DNA of 36,321 nt. It comes from a virus. Numbering within the stretch: position 1 is the stretch's first letter; each line of letters starts with the position of its first letter. Made by a program: the position numbers and the translations under genes. The stretch covers positions 1 to 36,321 of the IMG/VR virus record IMGVR_UViG_3300036761_002156, one strand, 5' to 3'. The notes beneath the pieces are model-generated. The model had not been told where the DNA came from and made no database searches. It saw nothing but the letters and a program-made list of their open reading frames with translations. Positions 628 to 33,519 of this stretch are shown here, piece after piece.

Positions 628-828
628 ATGAGCGACGCCCTGGACGACGCCATCGAAACGGCCGCCACCGAGGGCGTCTCCCGGGTCACCCTCGACGGAA
701 CCACCGTCGAGAGCTTCCCGCTGCGCGACCAGATCGCCGCGGCCGAGCACCTGGCGGCCCGCGTGGCCGCTGGCAAGAACCATTTGGGACTGACCTTTCG
801 GCGCCTCGAACCGGGAGGCTGCGGCTGA
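628..828 (+). CDS. gpW-like head-tail joining protein (putative)
   Basis: A 66-residue protein sits immediately upstream of the portal gene and its TGA overlaps the portal ATG (TGATG at 826-830), so the two are translationally coupled. It has helix - short beta (VSRVTLDGTTVESFPL) - helix (RDQIAAAEHLAARVAAG), the layout of lambda gpW (68 residues), which also precedes the lambda portal gene B. No strong ribosome-binding site is visible. The assignment rests on size, position and secondary-structure pattern rather than clear identity; other small pre-portal proteins are possible. Confidence 0.5.
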   Translation: MSDALDDAIETAATEGVSRVTLDGTTVESFPLRDQIAAAEHLAARVAAGKNHLGLTFRRLEPGGCG

Positions 829-2342
829 TGGGCCTGCTCACCTGGATCCGCAACGCGATAGGCCCACGCCGCAGCAGACGGCCCCCGGTCGAGGCGCCGC
901 TTTTTGCCCGGCCCGTGCGCGGCCGGTATGACGCCGCCGGCAACGGGCTGGAGACGAAGAACGTCTGGACCAACGCCGTCGATGCGCTCGACGCCGACGC
1001 CGCCCACTCGCTGGGCGTCAGAAAGCGGCTCCGCGAGCGGAGCAGGGAAGAGCAGGCCAATAACGGCTACGCCGATGGAATCCTCGGGACCAACGCCAAC
1101 TACGTCATCGGCCTCGGACCCAAGCTGCGCATGGAGACGGGCAGCCCCGGCTTCAACACCCTGGTCGAATCCCGCTGGAATCAGTGGTGCACGGCCTCGG
1201 GATTGATGCGCAAGCTCCGCACGCTCCAGCGTGCTAAGGACGGCGACGGCGAGGGGTTCGGCGTTTGCAAGACGAACCCCATGCTCCGCAACCCGGTGCA
1301 GCTCGACGTGCAACTGGTCGAGTGCGACCAGGTCTCCACGCCGTTCTTGGCGTGGGGCGTGCCGGGCAAGATCGACGGGCTCACCTTCGACGAGTTCGGC
1401 AACGTCGTGGACTACGACGTGCTGCCGTACCATCCCGGCGGCCTCTGGTGGGCGCCGATCGTTGACCCGACGAAGTACCCGGCCGAATACGTGCTGCACC
1501 TGTTCGCGGGGAAACGGTCCGGACAGCACCGCGGCGTGCCGACCGCCAGCCCGACCCTCAATCTCTTCGCCACCGGCCGGCGCTATCGCGAGGCGGTGGT
1601 GGGAGCCGCCGAGACGGCGGCCGACTTTGCGGCCGTCGTGCAGATGGGCGCGCCCAGCGAAGGGCCCGACGAAGTGCGGCCCTACAGCAGCGTGCCCATC
1701 GAGAAGCGGATGCTTGTCGCAACTCCGGCCGGCTCGACGGGTATCACGCAGCTCCGGGCCGAGCAGCCCACCACGACCTACCCCGACTTTGTTGATACCC
1801 AGATCGCCGAGGAAGCCCGGCCGTTCCACATGCCGCGAAACATCGCCGCCTGCGACAGCAGCGGCTATTCATTCAGCGGCGGGCAGCTCGATCACCTCAC
1901 GTTTTTCGTGGCCGTGGACATCGAGCGGGCCGACTGCGAGGAGCTGGTCCTCAATAAGCTCTTCGCGCTGTGGTTCGCCGAGGCCGTTGACGTCTATGGC
2001 TGGAGCGTGCCGGCCGATGCGGCTCCTGCGCATAGTTGGCAATGGCCCGCCCGACCGCAGATCGACGTGGAGAAAACAGCCAATGCCCGCAAGGTCTCGC
2101 TGAGCTGCGGCGCTACCACTCTGTCCCGCATCTACGCCGAAGACGGCTTCGACTTCGAGGAAGAGCTGGTCGTGATGGCCCGCGACTTCGGCGTCCCCAC
2201 CGCCGAGATGCGCAAGGTCTTGATGGATGCCGTCTTCAATCGCCAGGGCGCAGCCGCCTCGCCGCCGCCCACCCGCACGCCGCCCGAGACGCCTTCGCCC
2301 GCCCGCATGAACGGCCGCGGACGCATGGCATTTAGGGCTTAG
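828..2342 (+). CDS. Phage portal protein, lambda family
   Basis: At 504 residues this is close to lambda gpB (533). Its N-terminal part carries the family pattern: an Arg-rich start, ENxW-like TKNVWTNAVDALDADAAH, then RKRLRERSREEQANNGYADGILGTNANYVIGLGPKL. The portal forms the dodecameric ring at one capsid vertex through which DNA is packaged and to which the tail attaches. The last 30 residues are Pro/Arg-rich and probably flexible. It overlaps the preceding small gene by one base. Downstream lies the spacer repeat and the protease/capsid fusion, the expected head order. The terminase that would normally precede it is outside the window. Confidence 0.9.
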   Translation: MGLLTWIRNAIGPRRSRRPPVEAPLFARPVRGRYDAAGNGLETKNVWTNAVDALDADAAHSLGVRKRLRERSREEQANNGYADGILGTNANYVIGLGPKLRMETGSPGFNTLVESRWNQWCTASGLMRKLRTLQRAKDGDGEGFGVCKTNPMLRNPVQLDVQLVECDQVSTPFLAWGVPGKIDGLTFDEFGNVVDYDVLPYHPGGLWWAPIVDPTKYPAEYVLHLFAGKRSGQHRGVPTASPTLNLFATGRRYREAVVGAAETAADFAAVVQMGAPSEGPDEVRPYSSVPIEKRMLVATPAGSTGITQLRAEQPTTTYPDFVDTQIAEEARPFHMPRNIAACDSSGYSFSGGQLDHLTFFVAVDIERADCEELVLNKLFALWFAEAVDVYGWSVPADAAPAHSWQWPARPQIDVEKTANARKVSLSCGATTLSRIYAEDGFDFEEELVVMARDFGVPTAEMRKVLMDAVFNRQGAAASPPPTRTPPETPSPARMNGRGRMAFRA

Positions 2343-2395: not shown

Positions 2396-4594
2396 ATGGC
2401 CTTGATTCATAACTCCGAGACCGCCCTCGAGCCCGACGTGGCCCGGGCCGCGCTCAGTCCGGCCGGCGCGATCCGCATCTACGGCGCCATGGTCCTTGAG
2501 GCCGCGGCCGCCGACAAGCAGGGTCCGCGGCGCTTCAGCGGCGTGCTGTACGCCGGCGGCCCGCTGCGGGTCCCCGGCTACCCGCTGCCGATCGTGCTGG
2601 ACCTGGCCGGACTGGAAGGCACGGACAAGCCGCGGCCGTTCTACCGGGAGCACGATGATTCCAAGATCGTCGGGCACCTCGACGCCTATCAGAACAACGG
2701 CCGGCAACTGGCGATTGAAGGCGCGCTCTCCCGCGTCGGCGCCGACGCCGTCGAAGTGGCGCAGATGTACGACGACGGTTTCCCGTGGCAGCAGTCCATT
2801 GAAGCCCTGCCCGAGGCCCGTTCAATCGTCAGCGTGCCGGCAGGCCAGAGTATCACGGTCAACGGCCGCACGCTCGCCGGCCCGCTGTTTGTGGCCCGTA
2901 GGGCCCGCCTGATCGGCGCCTCGGTCGTCTCCCGCGGGGCTGACGACAATTCCACGTTTGCAATCGCGGCCCATGCCGCGCCAGACAACCACGCGTTTTT
3001 CCTCCGAGAAGGTGCAACCATGCAGTTTGAAAAGTGGCTGGAGGCCATGGGCCTCGTCGTGAAGGACCTCACCGAGCAGCAGCAGAAGATGTTGACGGCC
3101 AAGTTCGACGCCGAACAGGCCGCCGTCGTGAAGGCCTCGGCCGATGCGACCGGCGCCAACGGCACGCCCGCGGCCGCGGCGATCGTCGCGGTCCCCGGCT
3201 TCGACGCGGACGAGATCCGCGCCGTGTATGCCGAGCACGAGGCGACGATCGAGGCGGCCTTCGCCGAGGCCGAGCCGAAGATCGAAACCCAAAAGCTGGC
3301 AGGCATTCGCGCCACGGGCGTGAAGGCGGCCACCGCCCTGCGCCGCCAGGCCCTCACCGAGAAGTGGGCGGCCCCGCGCCTGGAAGCGGCCCTCGTGAAG
3401 GCCGCCGCCGACGTGCGGGTCGAGCTGGTCCGCGCCGAGCGGCCTGTGGGCCCCGCAATCCACTCGAGCACCCGCGACATGAGCGCGCCCGTGATCGAGG
3501 CGGCCCTCTGCCGCACCGCCGGTTACGCCGGCCTCGAAAAGGCCTATCCGGCGCAGGTCCTGGAATCGGCCGAAAAACAGTTCCGCAACCTGGGCATCCA
3601 GGAGCTGGTTGTGCTGGCCGCCATGGCCAACGGGTATTGCGGCCGGCCGATCGTCCGCAGCGGCAACCTCCGCGAGATCCTGGAGTACGCCTTCCCGGTT
3701 CGCGGGGCGGCGAGCTTCTCGACCCTTTCGCTGCCGGGGTTGCTCGGCAATGTCGCCAACAAGTTCCTGCTCGAAGGGTTCCAGAACGTCGAGCAGAGCT
3801 GGCGGGAGATCAGCAACGTCCGCAGCGTGCCGGATTTCAAGCAGATGACCGCGTATCGCCTGCTCGACGACATGGCGTACGAGCAACTCTCGCCGGCCGG
3901 CGAGATCCGCCACGGCAAGACGGCCGAAGAGTCGTACACGAACCAGGCGAAGACGTACGCGAAAATGTACGTCATCAGCCGCGAGAACATCATCAACGAC
4001 GACACCGGGGCGTTCGATACGATGCGTCAGCGGATCGGGCGGGGCGCCGGGATCAAGCTGAACCGGATCTTCTGGACCAGCTTCCTGGACAACGCGAGCT
4101 TCTTCAGCGCGGCCCGCGGCAATCTCATCACCACGGTCCTGGGCCTCGCCGGCCTGGCCGCCGCGGTGCTCGCCCTGGACAACCAGACGGACGGCGAGGG
4201 CAACCCCATCGAGAGCATGGGCAGCATCCTGCTGGTGCCGCCGGCGCTGCACCCCACGGCGCAGTCGCTCTACGTCTCGACCGAGGTCCGCGACACCTCG
4301 GCCAGCACGAAGATCCCGACCGCCAACATCTACCGGGACACCTACCGGCCGGTCAAGTCGAAGTACATCACCACGAGCTACGGCGGCGCTGCCACCCAGT
4401 GGTTCCTGATCGCCGATCCGACCGGCGGCATGGGCGTGATGGAGGTCGCGTTCCTCGACGGCCAGCAATCGCCGACCGTCGAGAGCGCCGAGTGCGACTT
4501 CGATACGCTCGGGATCCAGCTCCGCGGCTACCACGACTTCGGCGTCGCGAAGAAAGAGTTCCGCGCCGGCGTGAAGAGCACCGGAGCCGGTTAG
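2396..4594 (+). CDS. Prohead protease / scaffold / major capsid fusion protein
   Basis: The 732-residue product combines three parts. Residues 1-200 resemble the HK97-type prohead protease fold, with a candidate catalytic His in REHDD (H86) and Ser in WQQSIEAL (S134). Residues 205-345 are Ala/Glu/Lys-rich and helical, like a scaffold (delta) domain. Residues 350-732 resemble HK97-fold capsid subunits of the Mu gpT-like class, with YAKMYVISRENIINDD, a conserved YRPV segment and a C-terminal LRGYHDFGV. Protease/capsid fusions of this type are a recognised family. An internal ATG at 3020 (residue 209) has AAGGTG 6 bp upstream and could give a protease-less scaffold-capsid product of 524 residues. 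Flanked on both sides by family B spacers. Confidence 0.88.
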   Translation: MALIHNSETALEPDVARAALSPAGAIRIYGAMVLEAAAADKQGPRRFSGVLYAGGPLRVPGYPLPIVLDLAGLEGTDKPRPFYREHDDSKIVGHLDAYQNNGRQLAIEGALSRVGADAVEVAQMYDDGFPWQQSIEALPEARSIVSVPAGQSITVNGRTLAGPLFVARRARLIGASVVSRGADDNSTFAIAAHAAPDNHAFFLREGATMQFEKWLEAMGLVVKDLTEQQQKMLTAKFDAEQAAVVKASADATGANGTPAAAAIVAVPGFDADEIRAVYAEHEATIEAAFAEAEPKIETQKLAGIRATGVKAATALRRQALTEKWAAPRLEAALVKAAADVRVELVRAERPVGPAIHSSTRDMSAPVIEAALCRTAGYAGLEKAYPAQVLESAEKQFRNLGIQELVVLAAMANGYCGRPIVRSGNLREILEYAFPVRGAASFSTLSLPGLLGNVANKFLLEGFQNVEQSWREISNVRSVPDFKQMTAYRLLDDMAYEQLSPAGEIRHGKTAEESYTNQAKTYAKMYVISRENIINDDTGAFDTMRQRIGRGAGIKLNRIFWTSFLDNASFFSAARGNLITTVLGLAGLAAAVLALDNQTDGEGNPIESMGSILLVPPALHPTAQSLYVSTEVRDTSASTKIPTANIYRDTYRPVKSKYITTSYGGAATQWFLIADPTGGMGVMEVAFLDGQQSPTVESAECDFDTLGIQLRGYHDFGVAKKEFRAGVKSTGAG

Positions 4595-4672: not shown

Positions 4673-6001
4673 ATGAGTCAAACGCAACAGCAAGTCCGCG
4701 TCGTCGCGGACGGCAAAAAGGTGGACTACACGCCCACCTCCAACACGTACGGCGGCGACGTGATCGTGCTCGGCACGATCCCGATAGTCTGCCCGCAGGA
4801 CATCGCGGCCAACTGCCAGGGTGCCCTCGATCCGGACAGCATCGTCGAGGCCCCCAAGGACACCAGCGTGTTCGCGGCCGGCGATGCGGTGTACTGGAAC
4901 ACGACGGCCAACCCGGAGGACGGCAACAATGCCGGCAACGGCGCGGCCACCAACTCGGCCAGCGGCAACTATCTCTGGGGCCTCGCCCTGGCGAATGCCG
5001 CCGCCAACGCGGCCACCGTGACGCTGAAACAGACGGCGGCCCGGCGCACCAACACGATCGCCAACAGCGTCGGCGCCGACGACATCACGGGCACCGACTC
5101 TGCGCTGGGCATTTCCGGCAAGGCCGGCACGACCACCGGCGGGACGGTGGTCATCGCCGGCGGCACGGGCGCCGCGGCCAACGCGGGCGGACTGGTGAGC
5201 TTGACCGGCGGGGCCGGCAACACGACCGGCGACGGCGCGACGGCCAGCGTAGTCGGCGGGGCCTCGGGCGCCGGCGCGACCGGCAACGGCGGCGCGGTAA
5301 TCATCACCGGCGGGGCGTCAGGCGCCACCACCGGCTACGGGGCCGCCGTGACGATCGCCGGAGGTCTCGGCAAGAATACCGGCGTCGGCGGCGCGGTCTC
5401 CTTGACCGGCGGCCAGGGCGGCGAAGGCGCGACCGGCAACGGCGGCGCGGCCAGCCTCACCGGCGGAGCGGCCAACGCCACCGCCGGCAACGGCGGAGCA
5501 GCGACCATCACGGGCGGGGCCGGAACCACCACGGGTACCGGCGGGGCCGTGACGATCCTTTCGGGCGCGGGCAACGCCAGCAGCGGCGTGGCCGGGGCCG
5601 TGATCCTCGACAGCTCCGGTACCGGCGCCACCAAGGGCACGGTCACCATCGCGACCAACGCGGCCTCGCTCACCCTGGGCAAGTCGCCGCGCATCCCCGC
5701 GGCCATCACCGCCGCGAACGGGGGCAACGTGGCCACGGCCGGCGTACTGGCCGAGGGCTTCAACCTCATCACCACGGCCGACAACGCCAAGGGCGTGATC
5801 CTCCCGTCGTGCGTCAACGGTGCCCGCGTGATCGTGGTCAACCGCAGCACCACCAAGACCCTGATCGTCTATCCGCCCAGCGGCAAGCAAATCAACGGCC
5901 TGGGTGCCGACAACACCCTCGCCATGGCCGTCAACTCGGCCTGCGAGTTCTGGTCGGAAGGCGCGAACGCCTGGTACACCGTCCCGCAGGTGCCCAGCTA
6001 A
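4673..6001 (+). CDS. Capsid decoration-like protein with Gly-rich tandem repeat domain
   Basis: The 442-residue product has three parts. Residues 1-125 (TYGGDVIVLGTIPIV, AAGDAVYWNTTA, NYLWGLALANAAANAATVTLK) match the DUF2190-type capsid cement pattern. Residues about 155-335 are roughly ten imperfect units of 16-18 residues with consensus GGAVxLTGGxGxxTGxG, rich in Gly, Ala, Thr and Asn. Residues about 350-442 are a small beta domain (GARVIVVNRSTTKTLIVYPP, ACEFWSEGANAWY) of a kind seen in phage surface proteins. The repeats suggest a beta-solenoid or polyglycine-type stalk on the capsid surface. It lies directly after the capsid gene, as cement proteins usually do. The decoration role is inferred. 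Confidence 0.75.
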   Translation: MSQTQQQVRVVADGKKVDYTPTSNTYGGDVIVLGTIPIVCPQDIAANCQGALDPDSIVEAPKDTSVFAAGDAVYWNTTANPEDGNNAGNGAATNSASGNYLWGLALANAAANAATVTLKQTAARRTNTIANSVGADDITGTDSALGISGKAGTTTGGTVVIAGGTGAAANAGGLVSLTGGAGNTTGDGATASVVGGASGAGATGNGGAVIITGGASGATTGYGAAVTIAGGLGKNTGVGGAVSLTGGQGGEGATGNGGAASLTGGAANATAGNGGAATITGGAGTTTGTGGAVTILSGAGNASSGVAGAVILDSSGTGATKGTVTIATNAASLTLGKSPRIPAAITAANGGNVATAGVLAEGFNLITTADNAKGVILPSCVNGARVIVVNRSTTKTLIVYPPSGKQINGLGADNTLAMAVNSACEFWSEGANAWYTVPQVPS

Positions 6002-6108
6002 GAGCGAGTGGCCAGTGGTCAGTGGGCAGTGGTCAGCTCCAAAACTGACAACTGACCACTGGCAACTGACCACTATCCACTGACCACTGACCACTACCCA
6101 CCGTAGCG
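6002..6108. repeat. Spacer repeat, family A (GTGGTCAGT / ACTGACCACT units, inverted arms)
   Basis: AGTGGTCAGT-type words run rightward at about 6008-6037 and are followed by their complement ACTGACCACT at about 6042-6100, so the spacer can fold on itself. Confidence 0.8.
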
Positions 6109-6173: not shown

Positions 6174-7835
6174 ATGGCAGACCAAAAGCAGTACCGGATC
6201 TACCTGGCCGTCCCCGGCAACAAGATCTGCTGGGGCACGGTCACCGGTATCATCAACTCGACCGCCCGCCACATCGTGCACCCGTTCAACGGCGGGATGA
6301 ATTTCAACGGCGCCGAGGACTTTTCGATCCTCTGGACCGACGCCATCAATATGTTCGAGCGCGGCGAGATCGACTTGTTCGCCATGCTCCACGGCGACCT
6401 CACGCCGGACCCGACCCAGCGGCCGCTCGACATCCTCGTCGAAGAAATGGAGGCCCACGGCGCCGACCTGGTCTCGACGGTCAGCGCCATCAAGGATCAC
6501 CGCGGGGTCAGCTCCACGGGCATCGCGGACCTCGACGACCCGTGGCGTCCGTTCCGCCGCTACACGATCCGCGAGGTGCTGGAAAAGCTCCCGCCCACCT
6601 TCGACGCCGCGGCGCTCGGATATCCCGACCGCCCGTTGCTGCACAATACGGGCCTATGGATCTGCGACCTCAGGAAGCCGGTTTTCCGCGCCGCCAATGC
6701 CGCCGGCGAGCTGGACCTCACCTTCCAGTTTCCGACCCGCAGCATTCGCGGGCCGGACGGCCGCTGGATGCACCAGCGGGAATCGGAGGATTGGTACTTT
6801 TCCCGCGAGTTGTGGCTGCGTGGCGTGCGCAATACCTGGGCCACCAGCCGCGTCCGCCTCACCCACCACGGCCGGCTGGACTACGTGAACTTCAAGCCGT
6901 GGGGCGCCTATCTCGACGGCGACGAAGACACGGCCGACAAGTGGCGGGCCGATCGCGACGCCCGGCCGCTGAGCCTGGTGCAGATGCTGGAGTTCGAGCT
7001 GGGCACCCGCTGCAACCTGGGCTCGATGCACGCCGCCTGTCCCAACGCCGACCCGGCGCGGTTCGCCGATCTCGATACCTCGCGGGACCTTGACGACGAC
7101 ACGATCGTCGAGGCGGCCGTGACCGCCTACCGCGATCTCGGTTTTTGCGGCCTGGTCGGTTGGATCTACTACAACGAGCCGCTGCTGGAGATGGAGCGGA
7201 TGTTCGGCCTGATGGCCCGCATCAAAGCGGGCGCGCCGGCCGCCCGTTTCATCCTCTGGACCAACGGCACGCTCGTGCCGACCGACTGCACCCGCTTCGC
7301 CCAGTTCGAGCAGATCATGGTGAGCCGCTACAACGAGCTGAGCCAGCGCGGCGTCGATCGCCTGGTGGCCGCCGGACTGAAGCCGCGGGTGATCGAGAAG
7401 CCGCAGCTCGACGACCGCCTCTTCGAGCATGTTCCGGCCGACACTTCGGCGCCGTGTCTCCGCCCGTTTGTCGAGCTGGTCGTCGACGCCTGCGGCAACA
7501 CGCACCTTTGCTGTTACGACTGGCGGGGCAGGGCCACGTGGGGCAACCTCATGCGAGACGGCATCGTCGATTTGGCCCGCCGCTGGCGCGAGACCCTGCC
7601 GGCGATCGCCGGCCCGCAAATGACCGCCTGCGCGCCCAAAACCTGCCAAGAGTGCGGCCACCGCTGGAGCCAGTATCAGCAGCACGACGCGGCGATCGTC
7701 GCCCGGGCCCGGGCCGCCCGCGAAAAGTGGTCAGTGGTCAGTGGTCAGTGCTCAGACCGCACGGCACTCGGCGCGGGTCTCCCGACCCCGCCGGCATCAA
7801 ACACTACTAACTGCCCACTGCCCACTGACCACTGA
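6174..7835 (+). CDS. Glycosyltransferase-like / radical SAM-SPASM fusion protein
   Basis: The start could be the ATG at 6156 (559 residues) or the ATG at 6174 used here (MADQKQYRIYL, 553 residues); residue numbers below count from 6174 as 1. Residues 1-245 look like a GT-A nucleotide-sugar transferase: a beta-strand start RIYLAVPGN, an acidic metal-site candidate LHGDLTPD (D75, D79), EDWYFSR (E205, D206) and THHG (H231, H232). Residues 265-500 resemble radical SAM/SPASM: LEFELGTRCNLG (C280, C289) but without the canonical CX3CX2C triplet, then a SPASM-like set C428, C440, C446, C447, C486, C491, C494 with CCYDWRG and WGNL. The last 35 residues are encoded by family A spacer repeat (WSVVSGQ, PLPTDH). 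It sits between the Gly/Thr-rich capsid protein and head-tail genes. Modification of a virion protein is an inference. Confidence 0.7.
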   Translation: MADQKQYRIYLAVPGNKICWGTVTGIINSTARHIVHPFNGGMNFNGAEDFSILWTDAINMFERGEIDLFAMLHGDLTPDPTQRPLDILVEEMEAHGADLVSTVSAIKDHRGVSSTGIADLDDPWRPFRRYTIREVLEKLPPTFDAAALGYPDRPLLHNTGLWICDLRKPVFRAANAAGELDLTFQFPTRSIRGPDGRWMHQRESEDWYFSRELWLRGVRNTWATSRVRLTHHGRLDYVNFKPWGAYLDGDEDTADKWRADRDARPLSLVQMLEFELGTRCNLGSMHAACPNADPARFADLDTSRDLDDDTIVEAAVTAYRDLGFCGLVGWIYYNEPLLEMERMFGLMARIKAGAPAARFILWTNGTLVPTDCTRFAQFEQIMVSRYNELSQRGVDRLVAAGLKPRVIEKPQLDDRLFEHVPADTSAPCLRPFVELVVDACGNTHLCCYDWRGRATWGNLMRDGIVDLARRWRETLPAIAGPQMTACAPKTCQECGHRWSQYQQHDAAIVARARAAREKWSVVSGQCSDRTALGAGLPTPPASNTTNCPLPTDH

Positions 7836-7843
7836 CCACTATT
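7727..7843. repeat. Family A spacer running into the 3' end of the preceding gene
   Basis: GTGGTCAGTGGTCAGTG at 7729-7750 lies inside the coding frame and the complementary ACTGACCACTGACCACT lies at about 7816-7842. The stop codon of the fusion gene is within the repeat. Confidence 0.75.
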
Positions 7844-8209
7844 ATGACCACTCTCCTCCAACGCGGACTGACGAAGCTTGCCCGCGCCGTGCCCCAGGCG
7901 GCCGGGCGCGCGGCGACGCTCTCGCGCCGCGGGGTGACGTGCTCGCTTAGTGTGGTGCTGACCTCGCCGGGCGGCGGCGTGCTCAACGAGTCGGGCGTGC
8001 TCTTAACCTGGGAGGGCGTGGACGTGCTCTGCGCAGCGGCCGACTACGCACCGGGCGGAACCGTCTCGGAGCCGGCCGCCGGCGATCGCCTCAGCGTCGG
8101 CACCAGCGTTTACGAGGTCGTGCAGCCCAGCATGGGGCAACAGTGCTTTTCCTACCGGGATCCGCCGGACAACACAATGCTGAGGGTCCACGCGAAGCGC
8201 GTAGCATAG
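7844..8209 (+). CDS. Head-completion / head-tail joining-like protein (putative)
   Basis: A 121-residue basic-then-beta-rich protein. It starts MTTLLQRGLTKLARAV and continues with beta-type segments (LLTWEGVDVLCAAADY, PAAGDRLSVGTSVYEVVQ). This size and pattern (short N-terminal helix, small beta barrel) together with its position after the capsid genes suggest a stopper or joining protein in the lambda gpFII style, but I cannot show homology. The ATG directly abuts the family A spacer, and no Shine-Dalgarno sequence is visible. Followed by another family A spacer. Confidence 0.5.
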   Translation: MTTLLQRGLTKLARAVPQAAGRAATLSRRGVTCSLSVVLTSPGGGVLNESGVLLTWEGVDVLCAAADYAPGGTVSEPAAGDRLSVGTSVYEVVQPSMGQQCFSYRDPPDNTMLRVHAKRVA

Positions 8210-12149: not shown

Positions 12150-12225
12150 ATCAAGGATGAATGATGAATGATGAATGATGAATGAAAACAACTGACCACT
12201 ATCCACTGACCACTGACCACTGCTA
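12150..12225. repeat. Spacer repeats, families E (GATGAATGATGAAT) and A
   Basis: ATGATGAATGATGAATG units run at about 12157-12184, then ACTGACCACT units run up to ATG 12226. Confidence 0.75.
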
Positions 12226-13349: not shown

Positions 13350-13418
13350 AGCTTAGGTCTTAGACCTTGGACCGACAACTGAAAACTGACCACTGACCAC
13401 TGCCCACTGACCACTCCC
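13350..13418. repeat. Spacer repeats, families B and A adjoining
   Basis: GCTTAGGTCTTAGACCTTGG runs directly into ACTGAAAACTGACCACTG units; here two families abut in one junction. Confidence 0.75.
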
Positions 13419-14228: not shown

Positions 14229-14340
14229 AAGAGTGGTCAGTGGTCAGTGGTCAGTGGTCAGTTTCGACCTCTCACTAACCACTATCCACTGACCACTATC
14301 CACTGACCACTATCCACTGACCACTGACCACTATTTATTG
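14229..14340. repeat. Spacer repeat, family A (long, inverted halves)
   Basis: GTGGTCAGTGGTCAGTGG at 14233-14260 is followed by about 60 bp of ACTATCCACTGACCACT units. The two halves are complementary. Confidence 0.8.
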
Positions 14341-15016: not shown

Positions 15017-15075
15017 AGGATGAAGGATGAAGGATGAAAACACTGACCACTGACCACTGACCACTGACCACTCCT
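15013..15075. repeat. Spacer repeats, families E (GGATGAAGGATGA) and A
   Basis: Three GATGAAG units then ACTGACCACTG units fill the junction, overlapping the stop codon of the preceding frame. Confidence 0.75.
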
Positions 15076-15564: not shown

Positions 15565-15674
15565 CAGACAGAGTGGTCAGTGGTCAGTGGTCAGTTTCGA
15601 CCTCTCACTGACCACTATCCACTGACCACTATCCACTGACCACTGACCACTACCCACTGACCACTATTCCCTCC
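15565..15674. repeat. Spacer repeat, family A (long, inverted halves)
   Basis: GTGGTCAGTGGTCAGT followed by TCTCACTGACCACTATCCACTG-type units. It is nearly the same composite unit as at 14229-14340, including a shared GTTTCGACCTCTCACT core. Confidence 0.8.
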
Positions 15675-20239: not shown

Positions 20240-20330
20240 TCAAGGAAGTGGTCAGTGGTCAGTGGATAGTGGACCACCGTACACATTTTTGCCGTCCCCC
20301 GTCCGCCTTCCCCCGTCCCCCGTCTTATTG
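20240..20330. repeat. Spacer repeats, families A and C
   Basis: GTGGTCAGTGGTCAGTGG at 20249-20266 followed by GTCCCCCGTC-type units at about 20293-20325. They lie in the 399-bp divergent gap 20096-20494, which otherwise holds the promoter and dyad listed next. Confidence 0.7.
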
Positions 20331-24261: not shown

Positions 24262-24383
24262 AAATGCAAATTGCAAACTGCAAACTGCAAATTGGCCACG
24301 CCGCGAAATGGCTGGCTGACCACTGAAAACTGACCACTGAAAACTGACCACTGACCACTGAAAACTGACCACTGACAACTTCC
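24262..24383. repeat. Spacer repeats, families H (GCAAACTGCAAACT) and A
   Basis: TGCAAATTGCAAACTGCAAA units at 24264-24293 and then five ACTGA-type units before ATG 24385. Family H is seen only here. Confidence 0.7.
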
Positions 24384-32454: not shown

Positions 32455-32639
32455 AGGTTCAACCTCCAAGACGAATGCGGGACTGGCTTGGCGCTCAGGT
32501 CGAGTTGCTGCGGGACATCGCCGCTCCCGGAGGTATCGGCCGCGGCGGCGAGGGCGCCCGGGTCATTCCGACGGCGCCGTCCAGGGCGGCGGATTCGGGC
32601 CGAGGACTTTCTCGAACAGTGGAAGGTGATCGTACCTGA
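32451..32639 (+). CDS. Short overlapping frame before the methyltransferase (possibly frameshifted gene)
   Basis: GTG 32451 overlaps the preceding TGA. The first half reads MRDWLGAQVELLRDIAAPGG, like a family of small phage proteins that begin KFLGxxVxLLR; the continuation expected for that family (RRIRAEDFLEQW) is found in the +1 frame, which runs on into the methyltransferase. Either the short frame is a 62-residue product or a frameshift breaks or joins two genes here. Confidence 0.35.
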   Translation: MKVQPPRRMRDWLGAQVELLRDIAAPGGIGRGGEGARVIPTAPSRAADSGRGLSRTVEGDRT

Positions 32640-32649
32640 AGGGACATCC

Positions 32650-33519
32650 GTGACCACGCAGCGGCGAGGCCGGCGGTATGTGACAGCCCGGGCGGTCACG
32701 CGAACCGTGACCGTGCCGGCGGCGCTGGTACTCTCGCTTTTTCCCGGCGTGGATCTCCTGGGGCGCGCCTTCGGGCAGGCGGGTTTTTGCGTCGTGACGG
32801 GCCCCGAGCTGTTGTTCGGCTCGCGGGTGGAAGATTTCCGAGGTTTGGCCGGCCGCTTCGACGGCATCATCGCCGGCCCGCCCTGCCAGGACTTTTCCTC
32901 GGCCCGCCGCAACGAGCCCACCGGGGACGGCGTGCGCTTGCTGCGGGAGTTCTTGCGCGTCGTCGCCGAATGTCGCCCCACCTGGTGGCTGGCGGAGAAC
33001 GTCCCCGCGGTTCCAGATTTGCGACTCGACGGCTACCAAGTGCAGAGATTCGACCTTTGGGACGTGGAATGCGGCGGCATCCAGGCACGCTGCCGGCACA
33101 TCCAGTTTGGACACCGGAGCGGCTGGATTCTCCGGCCCAAGCGGCGCCAGCTCAGTCACACCGGAATGGTCCGTTTCGCCGTGACCGGGCGATCGGCGAT
33201 CTTGGCCTCGCAATACGGCGAGCGATCGTTCCGGGAACACTGCCGCCGCCAGGGGTTAGAGGGCTCCTTCCGCGCGCCGGGACTGCGGCCGCGGCCCCTT
33301 TGGTGGGCGATCGGCAACGGCGTCCCGATGACGATGGGACGCACCCTCGCGGAGGCAGTTCTGAGTGCCGGGCCGCGCGACCCCGCGCGTGATTGTCTCT
33401 GCGGTTGTGGCCGCAGCATTTCAGGCCGACGAATCAACGCGAGGCACGCAACGCCGGCATGTCGCAAACGGATGGAGCGGCTGCGCCGGGGAGCCCGCTA
33501 CGTGGTCACCTATCCGTGA
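32650..33519 (+). CDS. Cytosine-5 DNA methyltransferase (phage type)
   Basis: 289 residues from GTG 32650, with GAAGGGA 5 bp upstream; the frame is open further upstream to 32488, so the true N-terminus is uncertain. Motif I is LFPGVDLLGRAFGQAGF, motif IV GPPCQDFSSAR with the catalytic Cys (C79), motif VI AENVPA; the end has PLWWAIGNGVPMTMG like motif X. It is smaller than typical restriction-associated enzymes and has a short target-recognition region (residues 130-240). A C-terminal Cys block (CLCGCGRS...C) follows. No restriction enzyme is nearby, so it is probably an orphan protecting or marking phage DNA. Confidence 0.82.
   Translation: MTTQRRGRRYVTARAVTRTVTVPAALVLSLFPGVDLLGRAFGQAGFCVVTGPELLFGSRVEDFRGLAGRFDGIIAGPPCQDFSSARRNEPTGDGVRLLREFLRVVAECRPTWWLAENVPAVPDLRLDGYQVQRFDLWDVECGGIQARCRHIQFGHRSGWILRPKRRQLSHTGMVRFAVTGRSAILASQYGERSFREHCRRQGLEGSFRAPGLRPRPLWWAIGNGVPMTMGRTLAEAVLSAGPRDPARDCLCGCGRSISGRRINARHATPACRKRMERLRRGARYVVTYP

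Follow-up and report, generated by a model that had tools for sequence, protein, structure and literature searches.

The window analyzed here is the whole of a virus record of 36,321 bases, in which a plus-strand gene at positions 6174–7835 encodes a protein of 553 amino acids. The reading frame is open throughout and begins with an ATG at position 6174, closely preceded by an AGGAG. All the peptide motifs named in the original prediction (RIYLAVPGN, LHGDLTPD, EDWYFSR, THHG and GTRCNLG) were found in this frame. The gene and its surroundings comprise the following features.

828–2342, plus strand: portal protein (Pfam Phage_portal_2, 5e-38)
2396–4594, plus strand: protease/major capsid protein (Phage_capsid_4, 7e-39; phrog_4523)
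4673–6001, plus strand: cement (DUF2190-like) protein with Gly/Thr-rich repeats (Phage_cement_2, 2e-11)
6174–6959, plus strand: N-terminal GT-A glycosyltransferase half, residues 1–262 (HxD D75, SEDW 204–207; AlphaFold2 and Foldseek)
6960–7682, plus strand: C-terminal BtrN-like radical-SAM/Twitch half, residues about 263–503 (phmmer, profile, Foldseek)
7011–7040, plus strand: candidate cluster motif C280-X5-H286-X2-C289 (33/33 relatives found by a motif-blind search, 34/34 aligned domains)
7167–7181, plus strand: YYNEP (E335), counterpart of the SAM-binding GGEP motif (33/33; FYGEP of BtrN aligned with YYNEP)
7416–7418, plus strand: R415, counterpart of BtrN Arg152 (33/33; profile alignment)
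7455–7457, plus strand: C428, predicted auxiliary-cluster ligand 1, BtrN C169 (33/33; profile alignment)
7509–7514, plus strand: C446-C447, predicted auxiliary-cluster ligand 2, with C446 on BtrN C187 (33/33 each)
7644–7655, plus strand: C491 and C494, predicted auxiliary-cluster ligands 3 and 4 (30/30 and 28/29)
7727–7835, plus strand: C-terminal tail from an intergenic TGGTCAG heptamer-repeat element, outside the enzyme domain (relatives stop before the tail)
7844–8209, plus strand: head-tail joining protein (Phage_H_T_join_3, 2e-11)
6008–6101, 7727–7839, 12197–12220, 13384–13414, 14233–14331, 15041–15071, 15573–15664, 20248–20271, 24321–24379 and others: TGGTCAG repeats

A DNA methyltransferase-like gene (phrog_116, 1e-14) lies elsewhere in the window, at positions 32488–33519.

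An AlphaFold2 model of the fusion protein, computed with alignment A4 (37 rows, mean column identity 27%), had a mean pLDDT of 91.1 and a pTM of 0.73; AlphaFold places no metals, and none is present in the model. When the model was compared with the PDB using Foldseek, the N-terminal half matched A197 of the virus STIV best (5e-7) and also the collagen galactosyltransferase COLGALT1 (1.7e-6), which indicates a GT-A fold. The HxD (D75) and SEDW motifs of this half were identical in all 11 aligned homologs, and a full DxD was absent. The best match of the C-terminal half was BtrN (3.7e-10), together with MoaA, anSME and viperin-like structures, and this half contains the partial TIM-barrel fold of the radical SAM superfamily. 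BtrN was also matched by the single fusion-protein sequence in a phmmer search of solved structures (E = 2e-5), and was the sole match, end to end, of the A2 family profile among PDB sequences (E = 1.1e-15). The only relevant Pfam match of the fusion protein was SPASM below the cut-off, a domain that scored above the cut-off in relatives; PHROGs, NCBIfam and Pfam Radical_SAM gave no call on this protein. Two family members were weakly and partially similar to PHROG 1802 (E of about 0.002–0.007), and no full-length match to the fusion was obvious among the BFVD matches listed. Profile, AlphaFold2 and Foldseek matches thus bear out the predicted joining of a GT-A half to a radical-SAM-type half, each half having found the expected fold. 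Because BtrN was matched in three ways (2e-5, 1e-15 and 3.7e-10), the GT-A fold was matched at 5e-7, and the same fusion is found in seven other phages, the fusion is not attributable to chance.

These seven phages, the first found being L001 in IMG/VR, carry the fusion at 58–64% identity to that of the window. The gene order portal–capsid–cement–fusion is the same in 8/8, so that the gene does belong to a head operon, and the fusion directly follows the cement gene in all of them. A head-tail joining gene was recognized directly downstream in six of the eight; it was not found in L036, and the L001 contig ends inside the radical-SAM half. In 80 related phages found via the capsid protein, the usual order was portal–capsid–cement–head-tail joining, without the fusion; the fusion is therefore an insertion at the junction of the cement and head-tail joining genes in one sublineage. 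On the tree, the window-type fusion arose once, and its position in the head operon accordingly represents one event inherited by eight phages. In another contig (L086:4538–5161), an N-terminal-type glycosyltransferase domain directly follows a cement gene without repeats, and the contig stops before a possible radical-SAM half. Several other family members adjoin terminase, portal or capsid genes.

The motif that defines radical SAM enzymes, CX3CX2C, is absent from the fusion protein. The original prediction had recognized this and had listed C280 and C289 as the remaining residues of the stretch; it overlooked H286, with which they form the triad C-X5-H-X2-C. We computed the conservation of this triad without reference to the triad itself. 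A DNA pattern scan of IMG/VR with LGxxCNLxxxHxxCP had given 12 matches, all true relatives (L001 was among them, as was a pair of near-duplicates), and because this pattern includes the histidine, it was excluded as conservation evidence. IMG/VR was instead rescanned with two patterns from the domain alignment A2, [GA][WF][HI]YYNE and [VTH]H[LPI]CCxDW, neither of which contains any part of the cluster motif. The rescan yielded 33 loci, including a few near-duplicates, and C-X5-H-X2-C or C-X5-H-X3-C was present in every one. In alignment A4, C280, H286 and C289 were invariant, and the counts listed above for the glutamate of the GGEP type (E335), R415 and the five cysteines come from the same alignment. 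Degeneration of the standard motif is ruled out by this invariance, and the joint conservation of the SAM-binding glutamate, the counterpart of BtrN Arg152 and four auxiliary-cluster cysteines makes decay of the domain unlikely.

Seven SPASM-like cysteines had been predicted. Two of these, C440 and C486, proved not to be conserved, leaving C428, C446, C447, C491 and C494. With five conserved cysteines only, a two-cluster SPASM domain (seven cysteines, CX9-15GX4C..CX2CX5CX3C..C) is ruled out. The four cysteines at BtrN positions that mark the auxiliary cluster of a Twitch domain (C428, C446, C491 and C494) are kept, and to judge from the sequence, the C-terminal half is a one-cluster Twitch domain rather than a seven-cysteine SPASM domain. 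An iron-sulfur cluster probably resides at C280, H286 and C289, and it is fairly likely that this predicted cluster cleaves SAM. Because CX3CX2C was tested for and is absent, we do not class the protein as a plain radical SAM member, although it appears BtrN-like in its workings.

We examined the distribution of the family beyond these phages. A tblastn search of the INPHARED phages found no relative, and neither the fusion nor a stand-alone domain or stand-alone glycosyltransferase had a homolog there. Among plasmids, the sole match was a canonical BtrN-type gene of Sodalis located in a 2-deoxy-scyllo-inosose cluster. Pattern scanning of genome contigs gave mostly chance matches, with true relatives only in a Pirellulales MAG (Planctomycetota; L020) and an Anaerotruncus genome (a firmicute; L027). 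Profile searches of the respective phyla found a strong member in 1 of 343 and 1 of 348 genomes, these two being the loci that had led to the choice of the phyla, and the next-best matches were far weaker (1e-19 and 1e-13, against 1e-79 or better). The Anaerotruncus member (L027:5822–7630) is a His-type radical-SAM domain fused to a GT2 domain on the chromosome, with no obvious prophage; its neighbors resemble seryl-tRNA synthetase and Na/Pi transporter genes, a housekeeping context. The nearest cellular relatives carried the canonical CX3CX2C in 24 of 25 cases, the other lacking a scorable motif. In the maximum-likelihood tree, a branch supported at 100/100 separated all sequences with C-X5-H-X2/3-C from the others, and when only the part following the motif was kept, support for the His clade was 100/99. 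The His clade, as far as these sequences indicate, is monophyletic and mostly viral.

The TGGTCAG element forms part of the gene itself, as residues of about 521–553 are derived from a copy running into its 3΄ end. Such repeats lie between many genes of the window phage, often in head-to-head clusters. Near matches to a 17-mer of the repeats numbered 57 in the window compared with 0 in shuffled sequences. Of 199 genomes from the phylum to which the L020 genome belongs, 4 contain a 24-base run, one of them at 44 places, and none of 101 genomes from the other phylum does, a distribution hinting at a planctomycete host for the window phage.

The radical-SAM-like domain is repeatedly coupled to glycosyltransferases. 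A glycosyltransferase, fused or neighboring, was present in 32 of 33 viral family loci, the exception (L059) being a 4-kb fragment, whereas the same queries gave 1 of 80 loci in capsid-related control phages; the queries were partly drawn from family loci, which inflates this contrast, and the Pfam identifications are independent of it. At least three fused architectures are distributed over the tree: the window type, with the glycosyltransferase at the N-terminus; a permuted type (L051), in which the same domains occur in opposite order, located elsewhere on the tree than the eight-phage fusion; and a type with a different, C-terminal glycosyltransferase (L038, L039, L040, L042, L047 and L050), for which Pfam Glyco_transf_7C scored above the cut-off in L047 and L050. 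The two window-type domains are also encoded by separate genes within the same phage (L044/L046, L053 and L055/L056), and stand-alone radical-SAM domains lie beside GT2, GT92, GT17, GT25, GT4 or GT7C-like genes, and in L052 beside an RmlD-like gene. The model of L038 was of lower confidence than that of the fusion (pLDDT 75); its Foldseek matches were BtrN (1.9e-8), chondroitin synthase, beta4-GalNAc/Gal-transferases and the Twitch radical-SAM dehydrogenase SpeY (PDB 7WZV). SpeY is a canonical enzyme that acts as dehydrogenase of an aminoglycoside-type substrate; it is not fused, and its match was much weaker than that of BtrN. A GT fold and a glycan role are, on this evidence, very likely. 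The original prediction had proposed virion glycosylation or peptide modification. The repeated glycosyltransferase pairing supports the glycan part, and virion modification is plausible. Of sugar chemistry and peptide modification, the former is the more likely, given that BtrN is the closest relative and that glycosyltransferases serve as partners.

Genes of the canonical Radical_SAM/SPASM type were observed near some His-type members (L047:7003–8001, L060:6731–7498, L040:3855–4820, L053:2944–3996 and, on the minus strand, L041:6383–7435), and such a gene is perhaps a partner of the His-type protein. The phage radical SAM domain proteins PHROG 1802 and 21308 match the separate radical-SAM-like neighbor gene in L041 better.

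BtrN (2-deoxy-scyllo-inosamine dehydrogenase, PDB 4M7T) belongs to the Twitch enzymes; its auxiliary cluster is ligated entirely by cysteines, and it carries out a two-electron oxidation of a cyclitol (PMC6231123, PMC9012708). The phage domain aligns with BtrN over its whole length and shares the four auxiliary cysteines, the GxEP-like glutamate, Arg152 and a TNG motif. However, the two are only about 20% identical; BtrN has no glycosyltransferase and a canonical C16-X3-C20-X2-C23 in place of C-X5-H-X2-C, and W362 of the phage protein stands at the position of BtrN Tyr90. The three ligand positions are spaced in the phage motif as in HcgA/HmdB (PMC10100467), which belong to another enzyme group with another function and in which all three ligands are cysteines. 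HcgA with its CX5CX2C binds a [4Fe-4S] cluster and yields 5΄-deoxyadenosine (PMC10100467), so that this spacing is known to support a cluster with three cysteines, which lends support to the proposed C/H/C cluster. One radical-SAM protein has an auxiliary cluster with a histidine ligand (PMC9433317). For the other half, A197 of STIV (PDB 2C0N) is likewise viral and GT-A, and has been proposed to glycosylate the STIV capsid (PMC4187194). In contrast to the phage protein, A197 is a single-domain protein of an archaeal virus, and no sequence-level match between it and the phage glycosyltransferase half was found.

We consider it somewhat more probable than otherwise that the protein is a two-domain glycan-modifying enzyme, combining GT-A sugar transfer with BtrN-like radical editing on a virion protein. 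The GT-A half would transfer a sugar to, or extend a glycan on, a co-produced virion protein, most likely one at the capsid surface. The Twitch half would hold a SAM-binding iron-sulfur cluster by Cys280, His286 and Cys289 and an auxiliary cluster by four cysteines, and it may oxidize a carbon of the sugar installed by the glycosyltransferase, or edit it by hydrogen abstraction, as BtrN does on a sugar-alcohol. This reading is favored by the BtrN match, the invariance of C/H/C, the glycosyltransferase coupling, the position after the cement gene and the fold of A197; the substrate, cluster and chemistry are those that these similarities suggest, and the virion is on balance the expected target.

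The adjoining Gly/Thr/Ser-rich cement protein had been proposed as the link to the virion. Its repeats are Gly/Ala/Thr-rich, of the TGGAGxxxGDGG type, and their number ranges from none in L032 to most in the window. That the fusion specifically glycosylates these repeats would agree with its direct adjacency to the cement gene in 8/8 phages and with a threonine content of 9–15% in the C-terminal region of these cement proteins, but L032 has the fusion and a cement protein without repeats, whereas in L074 the repeats are present and nothing in the 55-kb record matches the fusion. Since repeats and enzyme each occur without the other, the proposed link is not supported, the repeats as sole substrate are ruled out, and a repeat-specific activity is improbable. 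A true glycosyltransferase and radical-SAM glycan editor might instead act on a host surface glycan (in superinfection exclusion or receptor masking), another phage product or modified DNA. Such roles are known or proposed for phage glycosyltransferases (PMC10202952), members lie beside many different head genes, and the Anaerotruncus member is chromosomal and outside an obvious phage module. Nonetheless, viral members often occur in head and packaging modules (terminase, portal, capsid), and the GT half folds like a proposed capsid glycosyltransferase; we therefore regard a non-virion target as the less likely case, though one to be taken seriously.

Alternatively, SAM cleavage may have been lost, and the C-terminal half may bind the glycosyltransferase acceptor by means of its fold and auxiliary cluster, perhaps with zinc or a structural metal seated at C/H/C. 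CX3CX2C is indeed lost, pseudo-SAM/SPASM families such as TIGR04347 already exist in NCBIfam, and canonical-type radical-SAM/SPASM genes adjoin L040, L047, L053 and L060, so that in those phages the His-type protein might be a partner without catalytic activity. However, the canonical gene is absent from most loci checked, and the invariance of both cysteines, the histidine, the SAM-site glutamate and the Arg152 counterpart would be unexpected if SAM chemistry had been lost; such a pseudoenzyme thus seems rather unlikely. The loss of the standard motif and the repeat element at the 3΄ end might also suggest a chance or decayed gene, a functionless remnant, but this is refuted by the open frame, the conservation over 8 fusions and more than 30 domains, and the invariant metal-type residues.

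An enzyme that builds and oxidizes a sugar on a virion or surface glycan thus remains the most likely reading. What is new here, as read from the sequences, is a viral lineage of radical-SAM-like proteins that is coupled to glycosyltransferases and in which a Cys2His motif never varies. In the open-access literature, which gives weak evidence of absence, we found no description of a radical SAM protein with CX5HX2C or of a phage fusion of a glycosyltransferase with radical SAM. Tentatively, this may be a mostly viral radical-SAM lineage in which a SAM-cleaving cluster held by two cysteines and one histidine, coupled to glycosyltransferases, generates radical-edited sugars on phage particles. 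We know of no earlier radical-SAM lineage with a histidine ligand on the SAM-cleaving cluster, and if C-X5-H-X2-C holds such a cluster, this lineage would be the first. The family would then have been missed by searches keyed to CX3CX2C, and its coupling to glycosyltransferases would open phage-encoded radical sugar editing, a new chemistry for virion or surface glycans, to direct test.
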